Counted from the stretch's first letter, positions 1-33,879 are shown. The stretch: 64,000 nucleotides of DNA from Gloeocapsa sp. UFS-A4-WI-NPMV-4B04 (GCA_019359535.1 JAHHHE010000001.1:35040-99039); one strand, 5' to 3'. Made by a program: numbers and translations. The notes: generated from the sequence alone by a model not told the origin.

Positions 1-2742
1 GTACTCAGGCAGTTTCGTTTGCAGAAAGCTACGTATAGCACCAACATCAAGTGCTGACTGCCGATTTAACACTAAATAAGCCACTAGGCGTTGGTCGCCA
101 GGTACATCCTCTCGCACGATCGCGGAGGCTTGTCGTATACCTGGGTGTTGATTCAGTAATGCTGCAATTTCTCCTAGTTCAACCCGGAAGCCGCGAATTT
201 TTACCTGATCGTCAACTCGTCCCAAAAACTCAATGTTCCCATCCGGTAGATAGCGGGCGATGTCCCCAGTTTTGTATAACCGCGGTCCATCTTCAAAAGG
301 GTTGTTGATGAATCGCTCTGCTGTTAGCTCAGGTCGATGCAGATACGCACGAGCCAATCCAGCGCCACTGATGTACAATTCACCTGGTACGCCAATGGGT
401 ACGAGGCGTAGCTGCTGATCTAGCACATAGACTTGGGTATTGGCTAGGGGACGACCGAGGGGGACTGTTGCTGCATGACTAAGCTGATCAACGCAGTAAG
501 TTAGTACGCCTACGGTGGTTTCAGTGGGTCCGTAATGATTGAGAATTTGGCATGGAGACTGCTGTTGGATCTGGTGGATCAACTCCCAACTAGCGGCTTC
601 ACCACCAAGAACTAGGCGCTGGCGGGGGAGAATAGCTGATGAACTTGCTAGCAAAGTGGCGAGGTGGGAAGGAACAATTTTGAGACAGTCGATCGGATGG
701 CGATCGCAGTAATCCGCTAGTGCTGCTGGATCTGATGCCCGTTCTGAGGAGATAATATGGAGGCATCCCCCTGTACACAAGGCGGGAAAGATCGCAGTAT
801 TGCCTAAGTCTGCGGCAAAGGTGGAAACTGTCGCATAGCTAGCACCTGCTGGTAAATTCAGTTTCTCTAAAATTCCGTACAGGTAATTCAGCAGTTGTCG
901 ATGCTCAACGGCGACTCCCTTGGGTTCACCTGTAGAACCGGAAGTAAACAGCACATAAACTAAATTCTCACTTGTGACTTGGCTAGTTGGATTCGCCTTA
1001 CTTTTCTGAGCAATGACTTCCGAGTGATCCAAGCACACTACTTGTGTTGCTGAGTTGGGGACTGTCTCAACCAGCGATTGTTGTGTTAAGAGGACTCGTG
1101 CTTGAGTATCTTGTAGCCGGAAGCTTAAACCCTCTGTTGGTAAGGCTGGATCTATGGGGAGATATGCTCCGCCAGCTTTAAGAATACCAAGCATAGCAAT
1201 GATTATTTCTAGCGATCGCTCTAAATCAATCCCTACCAGTTCTTCTGCACCAACTCCCAAATCTTGCAGGTAGTGAGCTAGTTGATTCGCCCTTGTGTTG
1301 AGTTCGCGGTAGGTTAAATGTTGGTCTTCAAATACAACAGCAATATTGTGCGGTGTTTGCTCTACCTGTGCTTCAAATAAATGGTGGATACACTTTTGCG
1401 GATAATCAATTTGAGTGTTGTTGATGGCTAATATTTGTTGGCGTTGGCGATCGCTAATAATTTCTAATTCATTAACTGTAGCTTCGGGGTTTTTAGCCGC
1501 ACTTGCTACTAAGGTTTGAAATTGCTCCCCTAATCGCTGAATACTTTGTCTGTCAATTAGTTCGCGATCGTAGTGTAATTGAGTTGTGAGCGATTCTGGT
1601 TGATGCAAGCAAGTGAGTTTAACTTTGAAGCGATCAAAGCAAACGTAATGCTTGTCAAGGGAAAAAGAAACCCCGCCAGCAGAATATTTATCTAGCCATT
1701 CATCAAACTCAAAACTAATCGGGAAATCTACATTGGTTGTTAATGCAGGATCTTCCCAAATGAAATACTCCTGCCATTGGTCAATATTGTGCCAATTCTC
1801 ATCAATCTGAGCTAACACTTCAGTAAATTTCAAGCTCTCTTGCCAGGAACAACGGACAGGCAAGGATTTGGCTAATAGACCTAGTGATTGATGCAATTCC
1901 TGATATTTTCTGCCATTGAAAACAGTGGTAATGGTAACGTCTGATTTCCCTGTGATTCGCCCAATTAGTAGCTGCCAGCAGGCGAATAAAAATTTATCAA
2001 TTGTAGTGGAATGTAGAGTAGCGATCTCCTCCAGTTTCTGTACATCTGGCTCAATTTTTACTACATAAACATCGGGTTCAAACTTTGTTTTTTCACGTTG
2101 TTGACGCTCAAAAGGCAGAGTCAGCGATCGTAGCTCCCAGCTTTGTTGCCAGAAATCTTTTCCTACTTCTGCATCTTCTACTTCTAGTAGTTCGTTCTGC
2201 CATTCCGAAAATTGAATATACTGTACTGGTTCATCAGTTAATTCCTTGCCTTCTAAGCAAGCAGTATAGGCATTACTAATTTCTTGAACTAGGTTTTTAA
2301 GTGACCAACTATCTGCATATAACGATGGTAGGTTAATTAGCAAAATATGCTGTTTATCTGAAAGCTTAAGTAGAGATAAGCGCAATTGAGAAGCTTGAAA
2401 ATTAAAAATAAAATGCCTTTCTGCTTCAAAAAGTGCCTCAATTTTATCTAATTGTTCTTCGGTAGATAGACCGATCAAATTAATATCTTGCCAAAATATC
2501 GTACTACTTTCGCCTATTACTTGAATAGGAAATTTTATCCCAGGTCGCCGTTGAAAAGATGTCCGCAGAATTTCATGACGAGCAACAACTTTCTCCAAAG
2601 CTGCTTTTAATAATTCAGCATTGATTTGACCTTCAAGACGAATGGCACATTGAGTATAGTAAGCAAAATTATCTTGTTGTAATAACCAAAGATGCTTTTG
2701 CTGTGGGGAGAGCCTAAACCCTTCAATAGTTTGATTTCGCAT
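1..2742 (-). CDS. NRPS: interface (non-catalytic C-like) domain - adenylation domain (Asp-like code), truncated by left window edge
   Basis: Not in supplied ORF track because no stop lies in the window. Manual translation from ATG at 2742: MRNQTIEGFRLSPQQKHLWLLQQDNFAYYTQCAIRLEGQINAELLKAALEKVVARHEILRTSF..., open through position 1 (914 codons, ending ...RSFLQTKLPEY). The C-like HHxxxDG site reads LPSLYADS. A-domain motifs include YVLFTSGSTGEPKG, FAADLGNTAIF, LKIVPSHL, NHYGPTETTVG. Confidence 0.93.
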   Translation of the reverse strand, partial: MRNQTIEGFRLSPQQKHLWLLQQDNFAYYTQCAIRLEGQINAELLKAALEKVVARHEILRTSFQRRPGIKFPIQVIGESSTIFWQDINLIGLSTEEQLDKIEALFEAERHFIFNFQASQLRLSLLKLSDKQHILLINLPSLYADSWSLKNLVQEISNAYTACLEGKELTDEPVQYIQFSEWQNELLEVEDAEVGKDFWQQSWELRSLTLPFERQQREKTKFEPDVYVVKIEPDVQKLEEIATLHSTTIDKFLFACWQLLIGRITGKSDVTITTVFNGRKYQELHQSLGLLAKSLPVRCSWQESLKFTEVLAQIDENWHNIDQWQEYFIWEDPALTTNVDFPISFEFDEWLDKYSAGGVSFSLDKHYVCFDRFKVKLTCLHQPESLTTQLHYDRELIDRQSIQRLGEQFQTLVASAAKNPEATVNELEIISDRQRQQILAINNTQIDYPQKCIHHLFEAQVEQTPHNIAVVFEDQHLTYRELNTRANQLAHYLQDLGVGAEELVGIDLERSLEIIIAMLGILKAGGAYLPIDPALPTEGLSFRLQDTQARVLLTQQSLVETVPNSATQVVCLDHSEVIAQKSKANPTSQVTSENLVYVLFTSGSTGEPKGVAVEHRQLLNYLYGILEKLNLPAGASYATVSTFAADLGNTAIFPALCTGGCLHIISSERASDPAALADYCDRHPIDCLKIVPSHLATLLASSSAILPRQRLVLGGEAASWELIHQIQQQSPCQILNHYGPTETTVGVLTYCVDQLSHAATVPLGRPLANTQVYVLDQQLRLVPIGVPGELYISGAGLARAYLHRPELTAERFINNPFEDGPRLYKTGDIARYLPDGNIEFLGRVDDQVKIRGFRVELGEIAALLNQHPGIRQASAIVREDVPGDQRLVAYLVLNRQSALDVGAIRSFLQTKLPEY

Positions 2743-2772
2743 AGATATTGAAATTCTGGAAGTGTATTTGTA

Positions 2773-3393
2773 TTATTCGTCTGTTACGAGAACAGATCCC
2801 TTAGAGTCCCACAAGTTCTCACGGATTGCTCTTTGATACAAAGCCTCGAAAACCTCAGCCAAAGCGGGAGCAAAAGCCATAGCCTTCTTATTACGGCTCC
2901 GGCTCATCTCCTCCGTCACAAAGTGTTCTTGCCATACCCGTCCAGAACTAAAAACGTTTTGGGCAAAGGCTTGTAGCTTATCCATCGCTCTAGCAAACTG
3001 AGCTTCTGGTGTCGGAGCGATCTCAAATTCTTTCCACCAACCATAGACTAACTTTTGCACATCCTCCGGCAGCAAGGCGAACAGCTGATTTGCAGCAGTC
3101 TCCTCACGAGCATTCTGGTTATAGTTGCCCACAGTGTCATATGCAAACGTATCGCCAGCGTAGATTTCGACTAGATCATGGATGAGAATCAATTTCAGCA
3201 CACGCTCAATGTCAACATCAATTTCCATTTCCTGATAAAGAAGGAGAGCAAACAGGCTCGTATGCCAGGTATGTTCAGCATCGCTCTCGTGCCGACTATG
3301 GTCTGAAAGATATGCAGATCGATATATCAGCTTTAGCTGGTCAATTGTTTCGAGGAAGCCCAGTATTTTAGTGAAACGCTGCGAATCGATCAT
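2773..3393 (-). CDS. HD-domain phosphohydrolase (YfbR-like / HD_3 type)
   Basis: 206 aa; HD-type motifs (SDAEHTWHTSLFALLL, LILIHDLVEIYAGDTFAYD) with conserved H..HD..D arrangement. Confidence 0.75.
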   Translation of the reverse strand: MIDSQRFTKILGFLETIDQLKLIYRSAYLSDHSRHESDAEHTWHTSLFALLLYQEMEIDVDIERVLKLILIHDLVEIYAGDTFAYDTVGNYNQNAREETAANQLFALLPEDVQKLVYGWWKEFEIAPTPEAQFARAMDKLQAFAQNVFSSGRVWQEHFVTEEMSRSRNKKAMAFAPALAEVFEALYQRAIRENLWDSKGSVLVTDE

Positions 3394-3445
3394 ATAAATC
3401 TCCTGTCTACAAGTCGTTGCCTACAGTAGTGACTAACCACTACCC

Positions 3446-6400
3446 TTAAGTAGCGATTATTTCGCCCATTGCCACGACAATTTTGCGCGAACCTTCATAA
3501 GGGTTACGTCCATGAGCAGCCAGCATATTATCCAGCATCAAAATATCACCTTGTTGCCAAAGAAAACTGCTAGTTAATTCTTGATAAACTGCCTCTATTT
3601 CCGCAATTACTGAGTCTTCAATTGCCGAACCATCGCCGTAATAAACATTACGTGGTAATTTCTTTTCCCCAAACATTGACAATAGAGATTGCCGCACATT
3701 TGACTCTAAGCATGATACGTGATGCAATTGCAGTTGATTGAAAAAAACAAGCTCTCCTGTTTTCGGATGTTTAGACACTGCTGGTCTAATTTGGCGGGTT
3801 CTCAGATTATTATCTGCGAGCCACTCAAAATCTATTTTTGCTTGACGACAATATTCTTCAACTACTGCTTTATCAGTAGTATGAAAGAAATCTTGCCAAC
3901 TCACATCTAAACCTGCAATGTAGTTGCGGACATACATTAATTGTTTTTGCTCAAATTTTTCCCGTAACTTAGGATTTAGGCGTTGATATACTTGGCGACA
4001 GTCAATAATTGGAGTTTCGCCGCCTTTTTGTGCTGGTTGCACACAGAAAAACCAGATTTTTTGGGGAAACTGGTGTAAATGAGAACTTTCGTTATGAAAT
4101 AAGATCGCTTTGTCAGGCGGGTAGGGAGTAGAACTATAAACTTTGCCGCTAATTCCTTCTCTGGGTAAGTCACCGTACTCACCAAATAATTCTGGGCAAA
4201 TAGCTTGAGCAAAGTTTTCAAACTCAGGTACTGTAGTGAGATTAAATCCTCGAAACAGAATTGCTCCGTATTTGAGTAGGTTTGCTTCTATAAATTCGCG
4301 ATGATTTTTTGCCCAGTCAGCTAAGTCAATTTGAGCAAAATTAGGTTGAATTAACAAGGGAAAATATTTCCCTTGCTGTAAAGAATCTGTCTTAACTAAT
4401 TGCCCTTGGGGTAGGCTGATAGTTTTGGGTTTAACAGATTTAAATTGCTGGAAACTAACTTGTTTTCGTGCTTCTTGTTGAGTAATTTGTTTGGTTTTTT
4501 CAGTTTCAGTTAGGATCTCTAAAGCGTTGATTTTGGTGTCTGGTTGAGCAGCAGCATTGTTAGCTAAAGTTTCAAAGTTATTTGACATACGCTTGATAAT
4601 TGCCGGATGAAAAATGTCAGTGTTGTATTGCCAAGTGCCAACAATTCCTTGTTGAGTTTCTTCAATAAATAGAACTAAATCAAACTTTGTCTTGCTAGTG
4701 TTTATATCTACGGGACTAAGAGTTAAGTTCGTTAATTCCAAAGTCGAAGTTGGGGTATTTTGGAAGACAAATAACACTTGAAATAGTGGAGTGTGGCTCG
4801 TAGTTCGATTTGGTTGGAGAACCTCTACTAACTTGGCAAAAGGCAAATCTTGGTGAGCATAAGCTCCTAAAGCAACCTCCCGCACCCGCGCTAGCAATTC
4901 CCGAAAACTGGGGTTGCCAGATAAATGAGTGCGTAAGACAAGTAGGTTGACAAAAAAACCGATTAATGGCTCTATTTCCGAGCGATCGCGATTAGCAACA
5001 TCAGTCCCAACTACAATGTCATCCTGATTTGTATAGCGGTAGAGCAATGTCTGCAAGATTGCCAGTAGGGTCATAAATAAGGTGACACCCTCCTGGTTAC
5101 TCAGGGTTCTGAGTTGTTGGGACAGATGAGGAGACAGGAGAAAGGATTGGTCTGGATCTTCCTCTGGGGCATTAGATGAGGAAAGGCTACTCGCTATTTT
5201 GGGTAAGTCTAATGTTGTGGAAGCGCCTGCTAGCTGTTGTTGCCAGTAGGAAAGTAAATTTTCTAATACTTCTCCTTGTAGCCACTGACGCTGCCAGTAA
5301 GCAAAGTCACCGTATTGGATAGCAAGTTCTGGCAATGGTGACGGGTTTCCGGTCGCAAATGCTGTGTAGAGTGCCGATATTTCTTTAGTGATGATGCTGG
5401 TAGACCAACCATCAGAGACGATGTGGTGCATCGTAAACAACACTATATGTTCTGCTTCGCCTAGCTTTAGTAGCGTTCCTCGGAGCAAAGCATCTTGTTC
5501 TAGGTTAAAAGGCAACTGGGCTTCCGCAGCAGCTAGCCGCAGAACTTCAGCTTCCTGTGTTGGCATTAATTGCAGGTCTACTAAAGGCAGCTTTATAGTC
5601 AAGGTTGGGGCAATAACTTGGACAGGTTGCCCATCTACGACTGTAAAAGTAGTGCGTAAGACTGCGTGACGGCGGATAATTTCGTTGAGACTCTGTTCTA
5701 GGGCAAAAATATTCAGCGAACCAACTAGACGCACAGCAGCAGCAATGTTGTAGGCGGCGTTATTTGGCTGTAATTGATCTAGGAACCACAAGCGTTGTTG
5801 AGCAAAGGAAAGAGGTAGCTGCTGCTGTGAAATTCGCTCAATGGGCGGTGTTGTCAGTTTTTGTGTAGCTGAAATCGCTTGATTAAGGCGATCGCTCAAT
5901 TGAGCTACTGTCGGCGACTCAAACAACCAGCGCAACGGTAGTTCCACCTGAAAAACTGAGCGGATACGGGAAATCAACTGAGTGGCTAGCAGTGAATGTC
6001 CACCCAAGTGAAAGAAGTTGTCATGGATAGATGGTGCTTGTGCCAATCCCAAGATATCGACCCAGATACCAGCCAGTACCTCTTGAATAGGGGTACGAGG
6101 TGCGGCAAAAATTTTCTCTAACTCAGTGGTAGCGGGTGCTGGTAAAGCGCGACGGTCTACTTTGCCGTTGGGTGTTAGTGGTAAAGCCTCTAAGATGACA
6201 AACGCTGTGGGAACCATATACTGAGGCAACTGCTGCTCCAGAAAGCGACGGATCGCACTGTTTTCTAGCTCTGCGTCTGGCTCTGGTACTAAATAAGCGA
6301 CTAGATGAGAACCAAGTTTATCCTCTCGCACGACAACTACAGTTGTTCGCACTCCTGGATATTGACTCAGCACCGCCTCAATTTCTCTCAGTTCAATGCG

Positions 6401-9139
6401 GAAGCCGCGCACCTTCACTTGGCGATCGCACCTTTCTTGATACTCCAGAGTGCCATCTGGGCGATAACGCACTAAGTCTCCAGTTTTGTACAGTCGGGAA
6501 GTTGGATCGCTGTTAAAGGGGTTAGAAATAAATTTCTCGGCTGTGAGTTGTGGCTGGTTGAGATAACCACGAGCTAACCCAGCACCACCGATGTGTAGTT
6601 CGCCTCTAGCTGAGATCGGAACTGGTTGCAGGTGATTGTCCAGGACATAAAATTGAGTATTAGCAATCGGGCGACCGATGGCGACAATGCTGTGTGGTTC
6701 GCTACTATTTTGAGGCTCTACTTTATGGGCAGATGACCAGATCGTAGTTTCTGTTGGTCCATATAAGTTCCACACCTCAGTACCGCGTGCGACTAACTGA
6801 TTGGCAAGCAAGCGATCGAGGGCTTCACCACCACAAAGAATTTTCAATTTCCATCTACCCTGCCATCCAGCTGCTAAAAGTAGCCGCCAAGTGGCAGGAG
6901 TGGCTTGCATCACCGTTGCGCCGGAGGATACTAACTGTGCTAACAACTGAGTGCCGTCAGTGGCGACTTCACGGCTGACTATCACTAAGCGATCGCCTAT
7001 AACTAACGGTAGGTACAGTTCGAGTGCAGCAATATCAAAAGATAATGTAGTGACTGATAAAAACGTATCTCCCCCAGTCAAGCCTAGAGTCAAGCGCATG
7101 GCATTTAAGAAGTTCGTCAAAGCACTGTGGGGAATTTGCACTCCTTTGGGTTTACCAGTAGAGCCAGAGGTGTAGATCACATAAGCTAAGTTATCGGCAA
7201 CCGCCACACTGACGAGATTTTCGTCACTTTGTTGAGCAATCTCTTGCCAGTCGGTATCGAGACACACTACCTGAGCTTGATGTTCTGGTAGTCCTGCTAG
7301 CAACTGCGACTGAGCGATTAGAACGGACACCTGGGCATCTGACAACATGAATGCCAAGCGCTCTTGGGGATACGCGGGGTCTAGTGGCACATAAGCGCCG
7401 CCAGCTTTGAGGATGCCTAAAAGCCCAATTACCATTTCTAGGGAGCGCTCAACACAGATGCCGACTAATACCTCTAGCTGCACACCTAGTTTTTGCAAGT
7501 GACGTGCTAGTTGATTAGCTCGTTGATTTAGTTCTCGGTAGGTAAATTGTTGGTTTTCAAATACTACGGCGATCGCGTCTGGTGTCCTCTCTACTTGCGC
7601 CTCAAACAGCTCGTGGATACACAAATCAAGACCTGCTCCTGTGCCTTCTGCGCTCTGCCTTGCGCCTTCTTCATTCCACTCCACTAGTAGCTGCTGTTGC
7701 TCTAACTTACTCAGCAACGGTAAGTCCGAGATAGACTGTTGGGGATTTGCCACAATTCCTGATAGTAGAGTTTGAAAATGACCCAACATCCTGCTGATAG
7801 TAGTAGCCTCAAACAAATGCGTGTTGTACTCTAAGGCTCCAGTTAATCCCTGCTCTGTGTGACTCATCACTAGTGTTAAGTCAAACTTGGCACTGCTGGT
7901 GTCTACTTCTATAGGTTGGAGGGTTAGTCCTGAAAGCTCTAAAGTCTCGCTGGGGGCGTTCTGGAGGACAAACATTACTTGAAATAGTGGTGCGTGACTC
8001 AAGTTACGCTCCGGCTGCAACTCCTCTACCAACTTCTCAAAGGGTAAATTTTGGTGAGCATAAGCCCCTAAAGCTACTTCTCTAACCCGACGCAATACCT
8101 CTTGAAAGCTGGGATTACCAGTTAGATCAGTACGCAGAACTAGAGTATTGATAAATAACCCAATTAATCCTTCAATTTCAATGCGATCGCGGTTGGCAAT
8201 CGGCGAACCTACAAGGATATCTGTTTGCCCTGTGTAGCGGTAAAGTAATGTTTTGAAGGCGGCTAGCAGAGTAATAAAAAGAGTGGTTTCCTCTTGGAGA
8301 CTGAACTTAGTCACTGCCTCAGTTAAGGTTTTGGGCAGGATAAAAGTTTGCACTGCACCTGAGAAAATTTGGACTGCTGGACGTGGGCGATCTGTCGGTA
8401 AATCTAACACCGGAATACTACCGCCCAGCTGCTTTTTCCAGTAAGTCATCTGAGTATCCAATTCTCTTTGTAGCCACTGTCGCTGCCAGAAAGCAAAGTC
8501 TGCGTACTGAATTGGTAGTTTCGGTAATGGGGAAGGCTTGCCAGTGGCAAAAGCTTCGTAGAGTGTCCCTACCTCCCTAATCAGCACTCCCATTGACCAA
8601 CCATCAGAGACAATATGGTGCATCGCAAACAGTACCGCATACTCTGATTGACACAGATGCAGTAAGCTAACTCGCAGCAACGGCGGCTGTTGCAAGTCAA
8701 AGGGAGTTTGAGCTAATTCCTTCGCTAACCGCAGCACTTCTTGTTCACGCTTGGTTTCGGGAAGTTGGCGCAGATCCAGTATCGGTAAGGTTAATGACAA
8801 ACTAGGAGCGATCGCTAGAACTGGTTGTCCATCTACGGTGTCAAAAGCAGTCCGCAAGACTTCGTGTCGCCTGATAATTTCGTTGAGGCTCTGTTGCAGC
8901 GCTGCTACATTCAAGTCACCTTTGAGCCGCACAGCCGCAGGAATGTTATAAAAAGGATTACCCGGTTCCAGTCGCTCCAGAAACCACAACCGTTGCTGGG
9001 CAAAGGACAAGGTTAAAGCATTATCGCCACGCGGTTGGATTTTTGTTGGTGCGACATTCTGCTGCTGATACAACTGTTGCACCAGTAGTTCGCGTTTTTC
9101 TGGTGAAAGGGCGGCAATGCGATCGCTCAAATTACTCAT
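3446..9139 (-). CDS. NRPS C-A(Gly-like)-T-C with C-terminal TauD/TfdA-family Fe(II)/2OG beta-hydroxylase domain
   Basis: 1897 aa. C: MHHIVSDGWS; A: SFDIAALELY / VMQATP / ILCGGEAL / NLYGPTETTIW (reads D-I-L-Q-L-G-L-I-W, Gly-type); T: FFHLGGHSLLATQ; C: MHHIVSDGWS; TauD: LFHNESSH ... DNMLAAHGRNPYEGSRKIVVAM. Confidence 0.93.
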   Translation of the reverse strand: MSNLSDRIAALSPEKRELLVQQLYQQQNVAPTKIQPRGDNALTLSFAQQRLWFLERLEPGNPFYNIPAAVRLKGDLNVAALQQSLNEIIRRHEVLRTAFDTVDGQPVLAIAPSLSLTLPILDLRQLPETKREQEVLRLAKELAQTPFDLQQPPLLRVSLLHLCQSEYAVLFAMHHIVSDGWSMGVLIREVGTLYEAFATGKPSPLPKLPIQYADFAFWQRQWLQRELDTQMTYWKKQLGGSIPVLDLPTDRPRPAVQIFSGAVQTFILPKTLTEAVTKFSLQEETTLFITLLAAFKTLLYRYTGQTDILVGSPIANRDRIEIEGLIGLFINTLVLRTDLTGNPSFQEVLRRVREVALGAYAHQNLPFEKLVEELQPERNLSHAPLFQVMFVLQNAPSETLELSGLTLQPIEVDTSSAKFDLTLVMSHTEQGLTGALEYNTHLFEATTISRMLGHFQTLLSGIVANPQQSISDLPLLSKLEQQQLLVEWNEEGARQSAEGTGAGLDLCIHELFEAQVERTPDAIAVVFENQQFTYRELNQRANQLARHLQKLGVQLEVLVGICVERSLEMVIGLLGILKAGGAYVPLDPAYPQERLAFMLSDAQVSVLIAQSQLLAGLPEHQAQVVCLDTDWQEIAQQSDENLVSVAVADNLAYVIYTSGSTGKPKGVQIPHSALTNFLNAMRLTLGLTGGDTFLSVTTLSFDIAALELYLPLVIGDRLVIVSREVATDGTQLLAQLVSSGATVMQATPATWRLLLAAGWQGRWKLKILCGGEALDRLLANQLVARGTEVWNLYGPTETTIWSSAHKVEPQNSSEPHSIVAIGRPIANTQFYVLDNHLQPVPISARGELHIGGAGLARGYLNQPQLTAEKFISNPFNSDPTSRLYKTGDLVRYRPDGTLEYQERCDRQVKVRGFRIELREIEAVLSQYPGVRTTVVVVREDKLGSHLVAYLVPEPDAELENSAIRRFLEQQLPQYMVPTAFVILEALPLTPNGKVDRRALPAPATTELEKIFAAPRTPIQEVLAGIWVDILGLAQAPSIHDNFFHLGGHSLLATQLISRIRSVFQVELPLRWLFESPTVAQLSDRLNQAISATQKLTTPPIERISQQQLPLSFAQQRLWFLDQLQPNNAAYNIAAAVRLVGSLNIFALEQSLNEIIRRHAVLRTTFTVVDGQPVQVIAPTLTIKLPLVDLQLMPTQEAEVLRLAAAEAQLPFNLEQDALLRGTLLKLGEAEHIVLFTMHHIVSDGWSTSIITKEISALYTAFATGNPSPLPELAIQYGDFAYWQRQWLQGEVLENLLSYWQQQLAGASTTLDLPKIASSLSSSNAPEEDPDQSFLLSPHLSQQLRTLSNQEGVTLFMTLLAILQTLLYRYTNQDDIVVGTDVANRDRSEIEPLIGFFVNLLVLRTHLSGNPSFRELLARVREVALGAYAHQDLPFAKLVEVLQPNRTTSHTPLFQVLFVFQNTPTSTLELTNLTLSPVDINTSKTKFDLVLFIEETQQGIVGTWQYNTDIFHPAIIKRMSNNFETLANNAAAQPDTKINALEILTETEKTKQITQQEARKQVSFQQFKSVKPKTISLPQGQLVKTDSLQQGKYFPLLIQPNFAQIDLADWAKNHREFIEANLLKYGAILFRGFNLTTVPEFENFAQAICPELFGEYGDLPREGISGKVYSSTPYPPDKAILFHNESSHLHQFPQKIWFFCVQPAQKGGETPIIDCRQVYQRLNPKLREKFEQKQLMYVRNYIAGLDVSWQDFFHTTDKAVVEEYCRQAKIDFEWLADNNLRTRQIRPAVSKHPKTGELVFFNQLQLHHVSCLESNVRQSLLSMFGEKKLPRNVYYGDGSAIEDSVIAEIEAVYQELTSSFLWQQGDILMLDNMLAAHGRNPYEGSRKIVVAMGEIIAT

Positions 9140-9144
9140 AGAAC

Positions 9145-12100
9145 TTACACCTTTTTGGAGTTTAAATTAGGTAATTCTTCCCTGGTTTCCTGCTCTGCTC
9201 CTTGCTCCAACTCTGCTAACATTTGTTCTAGTAGTTCGTTATCTGTCTGTTCAGCTAGCTTTTGGGCGATCGCCACAGCCAGATCAGCTACGGTGGGAGA
9301 ATCAAACAAGTAGCGTAGTGGTAACTCTACCTGGAATGCTTGGCGCAGTCGGGAAATTACCTGAGTTGCTAGTAGTGAATGTCCTCCTAACTCAAAAAAG
9401 TTGTCGTAAATACCCACTCGCTCTAAACTCAGGACTTCAGCCCAAATTCCGGCTATTACCTGCTCGACGTTGGTGCGCGGAGCAAAAAAACCTGCTAATG
9501 GCTGTACTTGATCTGGTGCTGGCAATTGCCACCGATCCACTTTGCCATTGGGATTTAAAGGTAAAGTCTTGAGGGTCACGACTGAAGGGATCATGTACTC
9601 CGGCAATTTCCTTTGCAAAAAACTCCGGATAGAATTAATATCTGGTGTTGCAACGCGACTCAGCACTAAATAAGCAACTAAGCGCTTGTCACCAGGCACA
9701 TCCTCACGAGCCACAACTACAGCTTGTTCTACATCTGAATGTTGCCTTAGCACCGCCTCAATTTCCCCTAGCTCGATGCGGAAACCACGAATTTTTACCT
9801 GATCATCAATTCGCCCGAGAAATTCAATGCAACCATCGCGCTGATACCGGGCTAAATCTCCAGTTTTGTAAAGACGCGCCCCCGCCTCCTGAGTGAAGGG
9901 GTTGGGAATAAATTTTGCTGCTGTCAGTTCTGGCTGATGCAGATAGCCTCGCGCTAGATTATCACCACCAATGTACAATTCGCCAGGTACACCAATTGGT
10001 ACGGGCTGTAGATGGGCATTTAGGATATAAATCTGAGTGTTAGCGATCGCCCGACCTAGTGGTATTGTCTCAGCAGTACACCCAGGCTCCACCTGATATG
10101 TAAGTACACCGACAGTTGCTTCTGTTGGTCCGTAATGATTGAGGATTTGGCAGTTAGCAGCAGATTTTTGTACCTTCTCGACTAAATTCCCAGGTGCAGA
10201 CTCGCCGCCCAATATCAGCCTTTGACGCGGCAAAATTGACTCCCAGTTGACAGATGCTAGTAAAGCCGCTAGGTGAGAAGGCACAATCTTCAGATAATCT
10301 ATGGGGTGGTAGCGACAATATTCTGCTAATGCGTCTGCATCAGTAGCTCGTTCTGCCGATATTATATGGAGACAGCCACCTGTACATAAAGAAGAGAAGA
10401 TCGCTGTATTACCCAAGTCGGCGGCGAAACTGGAAACTGTAGCGAAACTGGAACCAGAACGTAGATTCAATTTTGCTTGGATACCGTACAGATAATTACA
10501 AAGTTGTTGATGTTCAACAGCAACTCCTTTGGGGACACCAGTAGAGCCAGAGGTATAAATTACATAGGCTAGGTTTTTTGATGTTACCTGAATAGGCTTT
10601 TGCTGGCTATTTTGGGCAATGATTGTATCCCAGTCGTCTAGACACGCTATTTGAGCTATGTCTGCGTCAAAGCGATCGCGCAAATCCTGTTGCGTCAACA
10701 AAATTTTTGCCTGGGCATCCTGTAACATCAAAGTCAGGCGTTCTGTTGGCATTGCCGGATCTAGTGGTAGGTAAGCACCACCAGCTTTGAGAATGCCCAG
10801 CATTCCCACCACCATGTCCAGAGAGCGTTCAACACAAATACCTACAATTGTTTCTGGTTCGACTCCCGATGTTTGCAGGTAGTGAGCTAGTTGATTAGCA
10901 CGGGTGTTAAGTTCCTGGTAGGTTAGTTGCTGATTTTCAAACACAACAGCAATATTGTCCGGCGTATCAGCTGCTTGTTCTGCAAATAGTTGGTGAATGC
11001 ACTTATCTGATGGATAATCGGCTTGCGTCTGATTGAATTCAAATAACAGTTGATTGCGATCGCTAGACTTGAGTATTTCTAATTGACTAATGGCAGTTTC
11101 TGGATTAGCGATCGCACTTGCTAACAGTGTCTGAAACTGGCTAGATAAGTCTTTGATATCTTCGGTTTTATATAGCGCGGAATTATAGTAAATCTCGGCA
11201 ATTAAAGCATTCTTCTGCTGCCAGCAAGTTAATTTTAATTTGAATCGTTCAATACAAGAGTAGTGTTTGTAAATTTCAAAAGCTAGCCCCTCTTCACAAT
11301 ATTCTGGCAATTCCTCAAATTCAAAACAAAATTGATGCCAGGAGTCATCTATTTTAATACTTTCCTCACAGCTAAAGAATTCTTGCCATTCTCTAGCATC
11401 TTTTCTTGATTTACTGACTCTTTTGATTAGTTCTTTGAATGAAAAATATTTTTTTAGATAACAGTGTAGTGGTAAGTATTTTGTCAACAACCCTAAAGCT
11501 TGGTTTAATTCTTCATATTTCCTACCATCATCAGCCACGGCGATTATAATATCTTGTTGTTGCGTCAGTTTCCAGAGCAAAATCTGCCAACAGGCTAGTA
11601 AGATGTCGCAATTTTCTACATCATATTCTTGCCCTAACAAGTTAATCTCTTTGACTAAATCGTTAGAAATTTCTAGGGGTAATAACTGAGGCTGAAATTC
11701 TAAATCAAAGTTTTTAGCTTCACACCACAGATGTAAATTGGGTATGGCAGTTAAATTCTGCTGTTGCCAGTATTCTCGTCCTATTTCTGAATCTTCAAAC
11801 AGTTCATTTTGCCACTCAGCAATATCTGCATATTGTAGCGATCGCTCAGATATTTCTTTACCCTGTAAGCTAGCTGAGTACGAAATACTTATCTCTTTCA
11901 CTAATTGCTTAAGGGTTATACTATCTGCGAGCAGTGCAGATAAACCAAGTAATAATACATATTTTTTATGTGATAATTTAATAATGTTAATAATTAAACT
12001 TGAGTTATTTTCTAGGTAAAATGGCTGTTGTTTTATTGCATCAAAAATTAACTCAATCTTAGCTTCTTGTTCTTGAAGAGAAAAATCATTTAAATTATGT

Positions 12101-12360
12101 TCATCGATAGAAATTTCGTAGGTATCAGCTATCACTTGTAGCGGTATTGTCATTCCAGGTAGACAATGAAAGCTAGTGCGAAGAATCTCGTGCCGCTCAA
12201 CAACATTTTGTAATGCTTTTTTAAAAACATTTATATTCAGATTTCCGGCAATTAAAACCGCACACTGAACGCGATAGAAAGATATACTTTCGCCTTGTTG
12301 TAATAGCCAGAGATGCTTTTGTTGGGGTGATAGCCGAAACCCCTCAATGTGTTGTTGCAT
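9145..12360 (-). CDS. NRPS: interface domain - A (Asp-like) - T
   Basis: 1071 aa. N-terminal C-like domain lacks HHxxxDG (LLGLSALLADSITL). A-domain residues FAADLGNT / YLKIVPSHL / LILGGES / NHYGPTEATVG read D-L-T-K-I-G-H-V-G, close to the canonical Asp code DLTKVGHIG. T: FFELGGHSLLATQ. Confidence 0.93.
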   Translation of the reverse strand: MQQHIEGFRLSPQQKHLWLLQQGESISFYRVQCAVLIAGNLNINVFKKALQNVVERHEILRTSFHCLPGMTIPLQVIADTYEISIDEHNLNDFSLQEQEAKIELIFDAIKQQPFYLENNSSLIINIIKLSHKKYVLLLGLSALLADSITLKQLVKEISISYSASLQGKEISERSLQYADIAEWQNELFEDSEIGREYWQQQNLTAIPNLHLWCEAKNFDLEFQPQLLPLEISNDLVKEINLLGQEYDVENCDILLACWQILLWKLTQQQDIIIAVADDGRKYEELNQALGLLTKYLPLHCYLKKYFSFKELIKRVSKSRKDAREWQEFFSCEESIKIDDSWHQFCFEFEELPEYCEEGLAFEIYKHYSCIERFKLKLTCWQQKNALIAEIYYNSALYKTEDIKDLSSQFQTLLASAIANPETAISQLEILKSSDRNQLLFEFNQTQADYPSDKCIHQLFAEQAADTPDNIAVVFENQQLTYQELNTRANQLAHYLQTSGVEPETIVGICVERSLDMVVGMLGILKAGGAYLPLDPAMPTERLTLMLQDAQAKILLTQQDLRDRFDADIAQIACLDDWDTIIAQNSQQKPIQVTSKNLAYVIYTSGSTGVPKGVAVEHQQLCNYLYGIQAKLNLRSGSSFATVSSFAADLGNTAIFSSLCTGGCLHIISAERATDADALAEYCRYHPIDYLKIVPSHLAALLASVNWESILPRQRLILGGESAPGNLVEKVQKSAANCQILNHYGPTEATVGVLTYQVEPGCTAETIPLGRAIANTQIYILNAHLQPVPIGVPGELYIGGDNLARGYLHQPELTAAKFIPNPFTQEAGARLYKTGDLARYQRDGCIEFLGRIDDQVKIRGFRIELGEIEAVLRQHSDVEQAVVVAREDVPGDKRLVAYLVLSRVATPDINSIRSFLQRKLPEYMIPSVVTLKTLPLNPNGKVDRWQLPAPDQVQPLAGFFAPRTNVEQVIAGIWAEVLSLERVGIYDNFFELGGHSLLATQVISRLRQAFQVELPLRYLFDSPTVADLAVAIAQKLAEQTDNELLEQMLAELEQGAEQETREELPNLNSKKV
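11050..12360 (-). other. Interface domain (catalytically dead C-domain homologue), approximate bounds
   Basis: C-domain-like N-terminus (FRLSPQQKHLWLLQQ, VVERHEILRTSF) with SALLADS in place of HHxxxDG at about 11919-11955. Confidence 0.8.
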
Positions 12361-12578
12361 ATCTATAGAACCTTTTTTTATTAAATGTTTTAACTAAGAA
12401 AAACAGCAGGAAAGAAATGTATATCAATGCCTTTTGTGAAGACGAACATAAGAAAGTGAATTCATTGGTGGAGAAGATCGAAAAATCCATGCCGAGATTG
12501 CTTGGAATGAAGCGTAAAGCATCCTTATTGAAATCCCTAAATTTATCATCGATAATTCCTCCTTCTGCCTCTTGCCTC

Positions 12579-13616
12579 CTACCTTCTGTCTCCTTCATAC
12601 TGTTCAGCCATTCCCACTACAACTTTGCGCGAACCTTTAAACGGTGTACGTCCATGTGCAGCTAACATATTGTCTAGTAATAAAACATCTCCTTCTTGCC
12701 AAGGAAAGATAATTGTTTCTTGCTGATAGATTTGACGAATCTTGTCTAAAACAGCAGCTTCGATTGGAGAACCATCACCGTAATAAGCATTGCGGGGTAA
12801 ATCTGATTCTTGAAATTCAGCTAAAAGCTGCTGACGAACAGTTGGTTCTAAATTGGAAATGTGGAATAAATGAGCTTGATTAAACCAGACTTTTTCTGAT
12901 GTTTTAGGATGGGTAGCAACAGCTTGACAAACTTGGCTAGTTTTTAAGCGATCACCATGCCATTCAAACTCAATTTTGTTTTTATTGCAATAATATTCTA
13001 CATCAGATTTATTGTTTGTATTAAATACATTTTGCCAAGATAAATCTATTCCTCCACCAGAATTGCGCGTATACATTACTCCCTTTTGGATAAACTTTTC
13101 TTTAATTTCTGCGTCAAGAGATTCAAACACTTTACGACTATCAGCAATTGGTGTTTCTCCTCCCTGTTGAGCTTTCTTAATACAAAAAAAAGCAATTTTC
13201 ATTGACCAAGTACGAGAGTAGGACATCTCGTTATGTAATGGAATAAATTGATTAGCAGGATATTCCGTTGAAGTATAGATGTTACCACTTACGCGACTAC
13301 GCGGCGTTGAACGATAAGAATATTCCAGTAACTCCTCAGAAATTGCTTTGATGAATTGCTCAAATTCACTAACATCATTTACCTGAAATCCTCGAAAAAG
13401 TATGCCTCCATACTTCAATAACTGAGTTTCAATCAAAGCTCGATTATTTTTAGCCCAATTAATAAAATTTAATTGAGCTAAACTAGGTTGAATAACTAGG
13501 GGTAGTGTCTCAGGTTGTAAATATGATGTGTTAATCAATTCCTCGGCGGAGACACTGATAGCTTTACGACGCATAGAAGTAAAGCTCTTTGGCGGTTTGG
13601 CTTCTGTATTTGCCAT
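12579..13616 (-). CDS. Standalone TauD/TfdA-family (SyrP-like) Fe(II)/2OG-dependent beta-hydroxylase
   Basis: 345 aa; GGILFRGFQV, IPLHNEMSYS (HxE), QGGETPIADSRKV, LLLDNMLAAHGRTPFKGSRKVVVGM; homologous to the C-terminus of the 3446-9139 product. Confidence 0.9.
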   Translation of the reverse strand: MANTEAKPPKSFTSMRRKAISVSAEELINTSYLQPETLPLVIQPSLAQLNFINWAKNNRALIETQLLKYGGILFRGFQVNDVSEFEQFIKAISEELLEYSYRSTPRSRVSGNIYTSTEYPANQFIPLHNEMSYSRTWSMKIAFFCIKKAQQGGETPIADSRKVFESLDAEIKEKFIQKGVMYTRNSGGGIDLSWQNVFNTNNKSDVEYYCNKNKIEFEWHGDRLKTSQVCQAVATHPKTSEKVWFNQAHLFHISNLEPTVRQQLLAEFQESDLPRNAYYGDGSPIEAAVLDKIRQIYQQETIIFPWQEGDVLLLDNMLAAHGRTPFKGSRKVVVGMAEQYEGDRR

Positions 13617-13629
13617 ATTTAGACCTACC

Positions 13630-16600
13630 TTATAAATTTTTAATTGGTTTGCGCTCGATCTTCTTTAATTTCTGAAGATTAGATGTTTGAATTTCTCTTT
13701 TTTGGATAAGTTGTTGTTCTTTATCAATGTGGGAGAGAATTTCTGCTAGCTCGTTCAGCCTCATGTTGGGCTGCTTTGTAACATGGTGCAGGAGGGTTTC
13801 AAAATATCTGATTAATCGGGTAATAGCAGCCTTGTCTAACAGCTGTGTTTTATACTCAAACGTGCCTTCGATTCCCTCTGGACTTTCCCAGATATTAAGT
13901 AGCAAATCGTGTCGTACCGTATCAGTATCAATCTCAACTAAGCTAAGAGTTAGCCCTGGCAATTCCAAAGGAGGCATAGGAGCATTTTGTAGGACAAACC
14001 ACGCTTGGTACAATGGATTATGGCTCAGGTTTCTCTCTGGTTGTAGTTCCTCTACTAGCTTCTCAAAGGGCAAGTCTTGGTGAGCGTAGGCTGCTAAAGT
14101 AACTTGACGTGATCGCATCAATAATTCCTGAAAACTGGGATTACCAGACAAGTCGATGCGTAGCACTAAAGTATTAATAAAGAACCCCATCAGTCGTTCA
14201 ATTTCAACTTGAGTGCGATTAGCAATGGGTGAACCAACTCGGATGTCTTCTGTACCAGTGAAGTAATAGAGGGATGCTTGGAATGCCGCTAAGAGTGCCA
14301 TGAATAAAGTAACTCCTTGCTGGCGACACATCTGAGTAATTGCGGCGGTTAGTTCAAGTGAGAGTAAGAAAGATTGAGTTGCACCTTGATGAGTGGGAAC
14401 GGTTAAGCGTCTACTTGGTGTAGGAAATGTTAGTCGAGGACATTTGTTACTCAATTGCTGTTTCCAGTAATTCAGTTGAGTTTGGAGTACCTCCCCTTGC
14501 AGCCATTGGCGCTGCCAAACAGCGAAATCTGCATACTGGATACTCAGTTTAGGGAGTGGCGAAGGCTGTTGAGTAGAGAAAGCTGCATAGAGTGCTGCTA
14601 CTTCTTGAAGTAACACCCCCATTGACCAAGCATCGGAGATAATGTGGTGCATTGTCAGCAGAACGATGTGTTCTTCTGCTTGCAATCGCAGTAGAGTCAC
14701 TCGCAGCAACGGACAGCAGGTTAAATCAAAAGGTTGTAGAGCATCTTTTGTAGCCAGCCTTTGCACCTCAGCCTCGCGCTGTGCGGAATGCAAATGAGAC
14801 AAATCTATTAATGGTAATGTGATTAAGGAAGGTGCGATCGCCTGCATCGGTTGACCATCTACGGCGATAAAGCTCGTCCGCAAGGCTTCGTGACGCTCAA
14901 CCACTTCATTAAAGCTGCGGGTTAGCGCTTCCACATCGAGCTTACCTTGGAGACGCACTCCTTCCGGGATATTATAGGCATTTTCCGGCTCTAATTGGTC
15001 AAGGAACCACAATCGCTGTTGAGCAAAAGACAGAGGCAGTTCTCTATCCCGTGAAATTAGTACTAGGGGCGGAATCTCGAGCCCTTGTTTGGCACGACAA
15101 GCTGTTTCTATGCGTTCAGCCAAGCCAGCTACAGTAGGCGACTCAAATAAACAGTGCAAGGGCAATTCAACCTGGAAGGCTTCGCGGAGGCGGGAAATCA
15201 TCTGAGTTCCTAGCAGGGAGTGTCCCCCCAATTCAAAGAAGTTATCATGAATGCCTACTTGCTGAAGACTTAGAACCTGCTCCCAGAGGCGTGTCATAAT
15301 TTCCTCAACCGGAGCGCGCGGAGCAACAAAGCTTGCCAAGTCGCCTCTAGCGGTGTCAGGTGCTGGCAATGCCCGATAGTCAATTTTCCCATTAGGCGTT
15401 AGCGGTAGTGCCTCTAAAATTACAAAGGCAGAAGGCATCATATAGTTTGGTAACTTCTCCTTCAGGAAGTGGCGCAGTTCATTAATCGTGAGTAACTGCT
15501 TCGGTTGAGGAACTGTATAGGCTACCAAACGCTTATTTTCTGGTTCATCCTCCCGCAGCACAACCACACTCGCTTGTACTGCTGGGTATTGACTGAGAAC
15601 CGCCTCAATCTCTGCGAGTTCGATCCGGAACCCTCGAATCTTCACCTGTTGATCGCTCCGCCCAAGATACTCAATGTCTCCATTAAGCAAATAGCGAACT
15701 AAGTCGCCGGACTTATACAGACGCGCCCCTGGTTTGTTGCTATAGGGATTAGGGATGAACCGTTCTAGAGTTAGATCAGGGCGGTTGAGATAGCCGCGAG
15801 CTAAACCAGCACCACCGACATACATCTCGCCAGGAACCCCAATCGGCACAGGTTGCAAGTAGCGATCCAGCACATAGACTTGCAGATCAGGAATCGGACG
15901 ACCGATCGCACTGCCCGTACTGCTAAGGTCTGCGATCGCTAGGGGACGATAGGTGACATGAACAGTCGTTTCTGTGATCCCATACATATTGACTAATTGG
16001 GGAACCTGATCGCCGTGTCTCTCAAACCAAGGTCTTAAACTTTGGAGTTCCAAAGCTTCCCCACCAAAGATTACTAGGCGCAAGCTCAAGTTTTGCTGAC
16101 TGCCCAAAGATTCCTCTGTTTGGATAAGCTGGCGAAACGCGGAGGGAGTCTGGTTGAGAACTGTCACCCGCTCTTGGCAAAGCAAATTGTAGAAAGCTTC
16201 GGGTGAACGGCTGATCCAGTAAGGTACTACCACCAGCCGCCCACCATAGAGCAACGCACCCCAAAGTTCCCAGACGGAGAAGTCGAACGCATAGGAGTGG
16301 AAGAGTGTCCACACATCCTGTTCACTGAAGTGAAACCAGGATTGCGTCGCTGCCAAGAGACGCACAACATTGGCATGGCTGATTAATACGCCCTTGGGTT
16401 TGCCAGTAGAGCCGGAGGTGTAGATTACATAAGCCAAGTTAGCAGGAGAAACTTTTGGAGCAGGGTGAGATGCTTTCTTATCTTCCCAATCGCCATCTAG
16501 ACACACTACCTTAGCTTGATGTTCTGGCAAAACTGTGAGTAACTTTGACTGCATTAGCAGCACTGACACTTGGGAATCTGACAACATAAATGCCAAGCGC

Positions 16601-18378
16601 TCTTGGGGATAGGCTGGATCTAAAGGTACATAAGCCCCGCCCGCTTTGAGAATGCCCAGTATCCCTACTACCATATCTAGGGAGCGTTCCACACAGATGC
16701 CAACTAATACCTCTGGTGCTACACCGAGTGTTTGCAAGTGATGTGCTAGTTGATTTGCTCGTTGATTTAGTTCTCGGTAGGTAAGTTGTTGGTTTTCAAA
16801 TACTACGGCAACAGCATCCGGTGTCCGTTCTACTTGCGCCGCAAACAACTGATGGATACACAAATCAAGCCCTGGGTCATGAGTTATGATAACTTCTTCA
16901 TTCCCCCCTGCTCCCTGCTCCCTGCCTTCTCCATTCCACTCCCCTAACAATTGGCGTTGCTCTAAAGCACTCAGCAACGGTAAGTCCGAAATAGACTGTT
17001 GCGGATTTGCCACAATTCCTGACAACAAGTTACAGAAATGCTCCACCATCCGGCTAACCGTCGTGGCATCGAACAAATCTGTGTTGTACTCAAATAACCC
17101 TGCTAGTCCTAACTGATTTTCAGAGATATCTAGGCTCAAATCAAACTTCGCTGTCTGGTTTTCTGACTTTAGGAAACTGATAGCCAAACCTGGTAGCTGC
17201 AATTCGTCCATCGGTGTATTCTGGAAAACAAACGACACCTGGAATAGCGGGTTATGGCTTAAATCTCGCTCAGGTTGCAGTTTTTCCACCAGGTACTCAA
17301 AGGGCAAATCTTGATGGGCATAGGCTGATAAAGTACACTCGCGCACTCGCTCTAGCAGATCCCAAAAGCTAGGGTTGCCTTCCAGGCTAGTACGTAGCAC
17401 TAGGGTATTGACAAAATAGCCAATTAACCCTTCAGTCTCAGCGCGGTTACGATTGGCAATAGGGGAGCCTACCAAAATATCGTCCTGGGAGGTGTAGCGG
17501 TGCAGCAATATTTTGAACGCTGCTAGCAAAGTCATGAACAGAGTCACCCCTGCTTTTTTGCTTAGTGCCTTGAGCGCTGTAGTTAGATCGGTGGGTAGGG
17601 AAAAGGATTGCGTAGCACCTCGGAAGGTTTGAATTACAGGTCGGGGACGGTCTGTAGGCAACTGGAGTACGGGGGGGTTGCTACCGATCTGCTGCTGCCA
17701 GTAGGCTAGTTGTGCATCTAGTCTTTCTCCCTGTAGCCACTGCCGTTGCCAAACAGCGAAGTCGGCATACTGGATAGGTAGTTCTGGTAGCGGTGATAGT
17801 TTTCCCGTCGAGAAGGCTGTGTAAAGCGTTGCTACTTCCTGAATCAAAAGTGTGATTGACCAACCATCAGAGATGATGTGGTGCATCGTAAATAGCAGCA
17901 CGTACTCGGTATCACTTAACTGCAACAGAGTAGCTCGTAGCATTGGGCATTGAGTCAAATCAAACGGTTGCTGCGCTTCCTGCTTGGCTAGTCGTAGTAC
18001 CTCCTCATCCCGCTCAAATTCCGGAAATTTCTGCAAATTTACTAGCGGCAAAGCCAAAGTCAAGGTTGGGGTAATTAGCTGGACTGGCTGACCTTCTACT
18101 ACCCCAAAGCTAGTGCGTAAGGCTTCATGACGGCGCACGATTTCGTTGAGAGTTTGCTGTAGCGCCGCTATATTGAGCGTACCAGTAAGACTTACAGCAG
18201 TAGGAATGTTGTAGGAGGGAGTGTTTGGCTCTAATTGGTCAAGAAACCATAGTCGCTGCTGGGCAAAAGACAGAGGAAACAAGCGGGGCTGGCTAGCCTT
18301 TTTTTGTAATAACTCTGCCAGTAATGCCCGTTTTTGTTCTGCTGAAAGAACGGTGATATCTTTATGAGTATTGCTCAT
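13630..18378 (-). CDS. NRPS C-A(Thr-like)-T-C
   Basis: 1582 aa; C: MHHIISDGWS; A: AFDFSVWEL / VLNQTPSAF / VIFGGEAL / NMYGITETTVHV (reads D-F-W-N-I-G-M-V-H, Thr-type); T: FFELGGHSLLGTQ; second C: MHHIISDAWS. Start ATG overlaps upstream stop (ATGA at 18375-18378). Confidence 0.93.
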   Translation of the reverse strand: MSNTHKDITVLSAEQKRALLAELLQKKASQPRLFPLSFAQQRLWFLDQLEPNTPSYNIPTAVSLTGTLNIAALQQTLNEIVRRHEALRTSFGVVEGQPVQLITPTLTLALPLVNLQKFPEFERDEEVLRLAKQEAQQPFDLTQCPMLRATLLQLSDTEYVLLFTMHHIISDGWSITLLIQEVATLYTAFSTGKLSPLPELPIQYADFAVWQRQWLQGERLDAQLAYWQQQIGSNPPVLQLPTDRPRPVIQTFRGATQSFSLPTDLTTALKALSKKAGVTLFMTLLAAFKILLHRYTSQDDILVGSPIANRNRAETEGLIGYFVNTLVLRTSLEGNPSFWDLLERVRECTLSAYAHQDLPFEYLVEKLQPERDLSHNPLFQVSFVFQNTPMDELQLPGLAISFLKSENQTAKFDLSLDISENQLGLAGLFEYNTDLFDATTVSRMVEHFCNLLSGIVANPQQSISDLPLLSALEQRQLLGEWNGEGREQGAGGNEEVIITHDPGLDLCIHQLFAAQVERTPDAVAVVFENQQLTYRELNQRANQLAHHLQTLGVAPEVLVGICVERSLDMVVGILGILKAGGAYVPLDPAYPQERLAFMLSDSQVSVLLMQSKLLTVLPEHQAKVVCLDGDWEDKKASHPAPKVSPANLAYVIYTSGSTGKPKGVLISHANVVRLLAATQSWFHFSEQDVWTLFHSYAFDFSVWELWGALLYGGRLVVVPYWISRSPEAFYNLLCQERVTVLNQTPSAFRQLIQTEESLGSQQNLSLRLVIFGGEALELQSLRPWFERHGDQVPQLVNMYGITETTVHVTYRPLAIADLSSTGSAIGRPIPDLQVYVLDRYLQPVPIGVPGEMYVGGAGLARGYLNRPDLTLERFIPNPYSNKPGARLYKSGDLVRYLLNGDIEYLGRSDQQVKIRGFRIELAEIEAVLSQYPAVQASVVVLREDEPENKRLVAYTVPQPKQLLTINELRHFLKEKLPNYMMPSAFVILEALPLTPNGKIDYRALPAPDTARGDLASFVAPRAPVEEIMTRLWEQVLSLQQVGIHDNFFELGGHSLLGTQMISRLREAFQVELPLHCLFESPTVAGLAERIETACRAKQGLEIPPLVLISRDRELPLSFAQQRLWFLDQLEPENAYNIPEGVRLQGKLDVEALTRSFNEVVERHEALRTSFIAVDGQPMQAIAPSLITLPLIDLSHLHSAQREAEVQRLATKDALQPFDLTCCPLLRVTLLRLQAEEHIVLLTMHHIISDAWSMGVLLQEVAALYAAFSTQQPSPLPKLSIQYADFAVWQRQWLQGEVLQTQLNYWKQQLSNKCPRLTFPTPSRRLTVPTHQGATQSFLLSLELTAAITQMCRQQGVTLFMALLAAFQASLYYFTGTEDIRVGSPIANRTQVEIERLMGFFINTLVLRIDLSGNPSFQELLMRSRQVTLAAYAHQDLPFEKLVEELQPERNLSHNPLYQAWFVLQNAPMPPLELPGLTLSLVEIDTDTVRHDLLLNIWESPEGIEGTFEYKTQLLDKAAITRLIRYFETLLHHVTKQPNMRLNELAEILSHIDKEQQLIQKREIQTSNLQKLKKIERKPIKNL

Positions 18379-32278: not shown

Positions 32279-32279
32279 T

Positions 32280-33461: not shown

Positions 33462-33532
33462 CCTATCACAAATAAGATAGATTACGGCAGGCAGAAAAAT
33501 AATTTTCTCTGCTTATCTTCAAGTAATTTGAA

Positions 33533-33784
33533 TTAATTACCTGCAACTACAGGTATCTTTCGTTTAATTAAAAGAGCCATAGCATTGATAGTTCTAAAGT
33601 TGTCAAAATCAAGGTCTTCATTCTCAATTGTTATTTGAAACTCTTGTTCAATAAATAAAACCAATTGCATAGCAAACATCGAATTAACAAACCCAAGCGC
33701 AAAGATATCTTCATCTGCTTGGAACTCATGACCAGTGAAAAAACGCGACAGAAATTTTTTGATTTTTGCTTTAACTTCTTCCAT
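33533..33784 (-). CDS. Discrete acyl carrier protein (FkbJ-type)
   Basis: 83 aa; phosphopantetheine-site motif FALGFVNSMFAMQL. Confidence 0.85.
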   Translation of the reverse strand: MEEVKAKIKKFLSRFFTGHEFQADEDIFALGFVNSMFAMQLVLFIEQEFQITIENEDLDFDNFRTINAMALLIKRKIPVVAGN

Positions 33785-33879
33785 ATTTATCTATTTTTAG
33801 AAATTACTCTGAATTGCAAATTTTGAAGCTAAAACTGAGGAGTTTCGCCAAGCAGACAACTTTACGTTTTTTCATCTAA

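Follow-up and report, generated by a model that had tools for sequence, protein, structure and literature searches.

Two aspartyl hydroxylase units in a predicted cyanochelin-type siderophore cluster of Gloeocapsa: domain order, interface domains and a candidate docking motif

The cyanochelin B assembly line contains a pair of hydroxylases, one fused and one standalone, which precede its Asp modules, and its product carries two beta-hydroxyaspartate (beta-OH-Asp) residues (PMC12628792). In the potashchelin system, a fused TauD domain forms the end of the upstream non-ribosomal peptide synthetase (NRPS) and is followed by a condensation-like (C-like) domain and an Asp-specific adenylation (A) domain (PMC7100376). 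The association of hydroxylases with interface (I) domains and the fused C-TauD/C-like/Asp-A layout have already been published, and antiSMASH 8 provides profiles for interface domains and siderophore beta-hydroxylases (PMC7100376; PMC12628792; PMC12230676). Here, we analyze a stretch of 64,000 nucleotides from Gloeocapsa sp. UFS-A4-WI-NPMV-4B04 (GCA_019359535.1, JAHHHE010000001.1:35040-99039), hereafter the window, which contains the terminal portion of a long cluster of NRPS and polyketide synthase (PKS) genes on its minus strand. As judged from its sequence, this cluster belongs to the known cyanochelin class of beta-OH-Asp siderophore NRPS/PKS systems, to which it adds a further pathway. 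The published fused/standalone pair, the interface profiles, the named hydroxylase clades and the pairing of both hydroxylase types in nine genomes all place it within this known kind. It very probably encodes the terminal half of a cyanochelin-type assembly line, in which TauD enzymes positioned by I domains would hydroxylate Asp bound to the thiolation (T) domain.

The relevant genes are given below in the order of transcription (C, condensation domain; TD, terminal reductase domain), with the codes of their A domains.

13630..18378, minus strand: C-A(Thr)-T-C NRPS with A-domain code DFWNIGMVHK; its terminal C domain (about 13714-15042) is catalytic (HHIISDA)
12579..13616, minus strand: predicted standalone TauD-type Fe(II)/2-oxoglutarate aspartyl beta-hydroxylase of the standalone-type clade; Pfam detects TauD alone
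9145..12360, minus strand: I-A(Asp)-T protein (I about 11044-12336; A about 9508-11025, DLTKIGHVGK; T about 9274-9474)
3446..9139, minus strand: C-A(Gly)-T-C-TauD protein (C 7685-9019; A 6125-7639, DILQLGLIWK; T 5885-6094; catalytic C 4493-5821; fused TauD of the fused clade 3461-4384)
2773..3393, minus strand: HD-domain (HD_3/YfbR-like) hydrolase gene, which separates the fused TauD from its I-A-T partner
1..2742, minus strand: I-A(Asp)-T-TD protein, incomplete at the window edge (I about 1429-2715; A from 1413 downward, DLTKVGHVGK)

An initial annotation of this DNA had described a catalytic C domain and a TauD hydroxylase ahead of each I-A-T unit, once as a standalone gene and once fused; the open reading frames (ORFs) and coordinates proved correct, as did the Asp-type codes behind both C-like domains and the single Gly module between them. 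The HD gene before the second I-A-T protein and the reductase domain of that protein are additions to this layout. The whole protein comprises 1451 aa (L003:13427-17782, in the neighboring stretch outside the window), and its C-terminal end is a thioester-reductase-type NAD_binding_4 domain (Pfam). Domains were assigned by Pfam and seed hidden Markov model (HMM) scans, and PKS, FAAL and transport genes by reading translations. Upstream of the hydroxylase units lie a FAAL loader, three PKS proteins (ketosynthase and FAAL domains also by seed HMMs), further NRPS modules and an FkbH/acyl-CoA dehydrogenase/hydroxyacyl dehydrogenase cassette, while genes for a TonB receptor, FecB, FecCDE and exporters are found across both cluster flanks. 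The locus hence combines an NRPS/PKS hybrid, two TauD/I-A(Asp)-T units and siderophore transport genes, as is typical of the cyanochelin type.

The cyanochelin B cluster (ccs) of Leptolyngbya sp. NIES-3755 (AP017310.1; L006/L007) presents the same fused and standalone pair before I-A(Asp)-T, with I domains at both hydroxylase units in our own scan of AP017310.1, and likewise combines PKS with NRPS proteins, including FAAL and a terminal reductase domain. In cyanochelin B, however, the last of the hydroxylated units is the standalone one, which includes an epimerization (E) domain and precedes a Gly-TD module. In the window, by contrast, the fused unit comes last, a search for E domains found none, and TD forms part of the Asp module. 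The order of the window recurs in L. boryana NIES-2135 (AP018205.1), where a C-ending protein, a standalone TauD, I-A-T, a C-A(Gly)-T-C-TauD protein of 1.9 kaa and a second I-A-T protein are followed, as in the Gloeocapsa locus, by a type II thioesterase and a penicillin-amidase-like protein. In contrast to the window, L. boryana has no HD gene, TD was not detected in its last I-A-T protein and its standalone TauD belongs to another subclade. The proteobacterial IbH/TbH systems (cupriachelin, potashchelin and variochelin type) share the fused C-TauD, the C-like domain and the Asp A domain (PMC7100376), but their standalone TauD lies at the operon head with no adjoining interface domain, unlike the standalone copy in the window. 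A standalone TauD together with a fused protein of about 1.9 kaa occurs in nine cyanobacterial genomes with hits, this genome included.

The two C-like domains were examined in an alignment of 353 C and I domains. At the site of the catalytic HHxxxDG motif they read LGLSALLADSIT and INLPSLYADSWS, while the C domains directly upstream of each window TauD read LTMHHIISDAWS and FTMHHIVSDGWS. The motif loss noted initially (SALLADS, within LSALLAD, and LPSLYADS, within LPSLYAD) is therefore confirmed by alignment; most I domains resemble LPALCAD. HHxxxD is kept in 0/88 I domains as opposed to 94/95 C domains upstream of a TauD, which is far beyond chance. In a quick tree, a single branch (SH-aLRT 99) separates the 88 I domains, which carry conserved residues of their own, from the other domains; among the 88 are the C-like domains that follow fused TauDs on plasmids of Variovorax, Janthinobacterium and Eleftheria. 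This grouping was judged within our own C/I set, which includes fused IbH-type systems. An AlphaFold2 model of a window I domain shows a confident condensation fold (pLDDT 92.2), and its best PDB matches are 6p1j, 2jgp and SrfA-C condensation domains. With the condensation fold, the lost HHxxxDG, the position before an A domain and the grouping apart from catalytic C domains, the window domains classify by sequence as interface-type and not as catalytic LCL domains, in line with the initial annotation. The X domain of glycopeptide synthetases, which was also matched in the fold search (4tx3, E 5e-29; 4tx2), is likewise a condensation fold that has come to serve as a platform for recruiting a tailoring oxidase, but it recruits P450s and differs from I domains in position and lineage.

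The relationship between the hydroxylases and their neighbors was investigated across loci collected by TauD similarity, which yielded a tree of 122 TauD domains. An I domain follows 97 of these 122, and 95 of the 97 have a C domain directly upstream, either on the same chain or on a separate one. The earlier proposal that domain order and not fusion defines the hydroxylase unit is thus supported at the sequence level. Co-divergence was assessed from pairwise domain distances in 40 Asp-coded loci of the standalone-type clade. Here, TauD distances correlate with those of the I domain (r 0.69) and the A domain (0.65), as opposed to 0.10 for the upstream C domain; the bootstrap difference between the TauD-I and TauD-C correlations is 0.58 (0.38-0.75), and the partial correlation of TauD and I given C and A amounts to 0.57 over all loci (permutation p 0.001). 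TauD distances follow I and A and not C, which indicates that the hydroxylase travels with the downstream I-A-T module while the upstream C domain is exchanged. In the fused clade every domain co-diverges, as expected for a fixed chain. Across more than 90 relatives, the sequences indicate that the hydroxylase co-evolves with the module that follows it and not with the preceding condensation domain, and this co-divergence would fit binding or positioning of the hydroxylase by the I domain. The resulting rule, that a hydroxylase belongs to the interface-A-T module behind it even with a C domain directly in front, would aid the prediction of hydroxylated siderophores and the transfer of hydroxylating modules between assembly lines.

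In the TauD tree, the fused window copy falls into a 25-row clade (support 100/99), all members of which are fused behind a C domain; as in the IbH_Asp-like fused clade, these include fused TauDs from Variovorax, Janthinobacterium, Azospirillum and Eleftheria plasmids. The standalone window copy lies in a 56-row clade (support 99/94) together with proteobacterial standalone enzymes. Each of the two clades spans several phyla, and the nearest relatives of both window TauDs are all cyanobacteria. By clade, the standalone copy fits TbH_Asp, enzymes of which have no interface domain; since an I domain directly follows the window copy, it was not filed as TbH_Asp. Two cyanobacterial hydroxylase clades have been named CyanoBH_Asp1 and CyanoBH_Asp2 (PMC12971057), and the standalone window TauD probably belongs to one of them.

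Asp codes are found in 64/79 aligned I-A modules. Non-Asp codes occur behind TauDs outside the fused clade, where seven are His-like (DSALIAEVW; L063, L067, L073, L079, L091, L051, L056), three Gln-like (DAWQ[FY]GLI[DE]; L070, L080, L046) and four odd (SSRD[VL]AMGI; L059, L075, L077, L025). Such modules could possibly give rise to beta-hydroxy-His or other hydroxylated residues in cyanobacteria. One acidobacterial metagenome-assembled genome additionally contains a tandem TauD gene pair between one C and one I domain (L046:8184-10154).

From the observed domains, codes, clades, domain order and co-divergence, we infer hydroxylation, recruitment, stereochemistry and product as follows. Each of the two Asp residues would be activated by its A domain and loaded onto the corresponding T domain, where its beta carbon would be hydroxylated by a TauD enzyme that the catalytically dead I domain positions. 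Condensation of the growing chain onto the hydroxylated residue would then fall to the catalytic C domain with which the upstream protein ends. The first unit would employ the standalone hydroxylase (R-type clade), with the terminal C domain of the C-A(Thr)-T-C protein condensing onto the first Asp module, and the second unit the hydroxylase of the S-type clade that is joined to the end of the upstream C domain, such that Gly is placed between the two hydroxylated residues. Both Asp residues are thereby predicted from sequence to be beta-hydroxylated and to bind Fe(III), as initially proposed. The last residue would be released reductively by the TD domain and possibly transaminated. A class III aminotransferase gene (GSA-aminotransferase-like by reading; L003:11903-13387, outside the window) follows the I-A-T-TD gene, and a homologue lies nearby in 8/10 loci with an I-A-T(-E)-TD protein, with 64-72% identity in the seven others. 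The reduced terminal hydroxy-Asp is therefore probably transaminated, which would leave its hydroxycarboxylate free for iron.

With regard to stereochemistry, S configuration has been assigned to the fused and R to the standalone enzymes of cyanochelin B, the product of which contains L-threo and D-threo residues (PMC12628792). Potashchelin, with one hydroxylase of each type, contains L-threo and L-erythro residues (PMC7100376). E domains occur in 21/62 standalone-clade units with a detected T domain versus 1/13 fused-clade units. In the window cluster no E domain was found, E-profile scores being at most 70 where C scores reach 199-892, and D-configured residues in the two Asp units were rejected on this ground. 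By analogy, the clade assignment and the absence of a detectable E domain predict an L-erythro first and an L-threo second Asp. A C domain with the C1 motif SPMQEGMLFH, which appears DCL/dual-like by reading, is present at window positions 23105-26404 despite the lack of a detected E domain.

Several points speak against this proposed pathway or limit its reach. The strain has no known product, and the stereochemical rule is an analogy taken from the systems of other papers, one of which gives opposite assignments in its abstract and introduction (potashchelin; PMC7100376). Furthermore, a modeled fold cannot demonstrate recruitment, co-divergence in the fused clade cannot tell I from C as the partner of TauD, and the choice of relatives by TauD similarity biases the set toward cyanochelin-like loci.

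Upstream C proteins of split systems terminate in a basic tail with a consensus of approximately LQKLKxIKRKAI, which the TauD N-terminus resembles. The corresponding segments in the window are the following.

13642..13677, minus strand: C-terminal basic tag LQKLKKIERKPI of the C-A-T-C protein (tail peptide SNLQKLKKIERKPIKNL)
13557..13592, minus strand: N-terminal segment PKSFTSMRRKAI of the standalone TauD, at the tag position of relatives
4418..4453, minus strand: copy of the tag in the fused protein, FQQFKSVKPKTI, in the linker that joins C to TauD (15.1 bits)

With a motif matrix learned from tails alone, the tag of the C-A-T-C protein is the top-scoring site in 25,740 aa of ORFs (30.3 bits, own copy excluded from the matrix), while the N-terminal segment of the window TauD, tested alone, reaches 4.1 bits and is not significant. 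At a threshold of at least 6 bits, the motif is present in 61/64 upstream C tails over several phyla, in 31/37 fused linkers and in 45/66 N-termini of interface-partnered standalone TauDs, and in 7/129 other NRPS tails, at least three of which belong to C proteins before a TauD. Split pairs mostly contain two scored copies (38/64) and fused linkers mostly one (22/37). No mention of the motif was found in the literature searched, which did not include Reitz 2019 or Galica 2021.

Two explanations of this motif can be considered, both compatible with the pathway outlined above. First, it might be a flexible linker remnant of gene fission without any docking role, to which we assign a little less than an even chance. 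Splitting a C-TauD gene, or joining its two parts, would naturally leave linker sequence behind as a scar, and in the AlphaFold2 model of the fused C-TauD (overall pTM 0.52, so that C and TauD appear not to be rigidly placed) the linker is a helix end running into a low-confidence loop. A mere scar is at odds with a tail that persists in nearly all upstream C proteins although their C domains diverge independently of TauD, and that recurs in every later-fetched split pair with an upstream C domain (loci outside the training set, some close to training sequences). It is equally at odds with the lack of the N-terminal copy in all 14 TauDs without an interface partner (0/14; Fisher p 1.5e-6); two later-fetched TauDs with neither C nor I neighbors also lack the tag. 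Second, and as our own tentative proposal, the motif could be a docking tag for the interface module, present once on each separate polypeptide that reaches I-A-T. The split form would then require one copy at the C-terminus of the C protein and another at the N-terminus of the hydroxylase, and the fused form only one. The mean net charge of I domains is more negative than that of C domains (-20 vs -12), and I positions 174, 178, 181 and 182 have gained acidic residues, but an acidic I-domain face as the docking site is only suggestive. If true, a docking tag would account for the ability of a dead condensation domain to bring a C domain and an oxidase together on one carrier, and also for the optional nature of fusion. 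In either case, the motif offers a concrete peptide to mutate or transplant.

Alternatively, the I domains themselves might be functionless leftovers of decayed C domains, with the hydroxylases reaching the T domain unaided as interface-free TbH-type enzymes do. A subclade with standalone TauDs from Proteobacteria, Nitrospira and Sorangium, which lacks an interface partner, indeed nests inside the standalone clade of the window copy, which implies that this enzyme type can work without such a partner. In addition, three acidobacterial loci (L061, L069 and L072, Acidobacteriota) encode a TauD that lacks the basic tag and, behind it, an A-T protein whose A domain is not preceded by any C-like domain. 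Dead weight would, however, be expected to be lost, and the I domains instead constitute one lineage with its own conserved residues, appear in the model to have kept their fold with high confidence and co-diverge with TauD beyond what A and C account for, which makes their decay quite improbable. Recruitment by the I domain is thus retained as the preferred reading for both units.

Finally, the claim of the initial annotation that both are one functional unit, the fused copy having arisen by fusion of the standalone TauD to the upstream C domain, draws on their identical domain order, on active-site residues common to both TauDs (H128, E130 and H321 of the standalone enzyme are invariant in alignment A1) and on fusion states that did change elsewhere (12 fused TauDs lie outside the fused clade and the tree requires at least four changes), but it is very hard to reconcile with TauDs that are only 52% identical, lie in different, well-supported multi-phylum clades and have relatives with differing published stereochemistry (PMC12628792; PMC7100376). 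The fused copy is accordingly not simply the standalone copy after fusion; the sequences instead identify the two window TauDs as old paralogues, with separate changes of fusion state in other lineages.

Among the remaining genes, the HD gene was rejected as a component of the system: only 5/60 relatives contain any match (40-43% identity among those listed), and no related cluster examined has a homologue. A penicillin-acylase-like protein adjoining the cluster (L003:6704-8809) has a counterpart with 68% identity in L. boryana (L008) and, by analogy with PvdQ, may trim a fatty acid from the product. The FkbH, acyl-CoA dehydrogenase and hydroxyacyl dehydrogenase genes at window positions 31211-34731 constitute a hydroxy- or methoxymalonyl-type extender cassette, which is common to the clusters in L099 and L031 with 69-80% identity.

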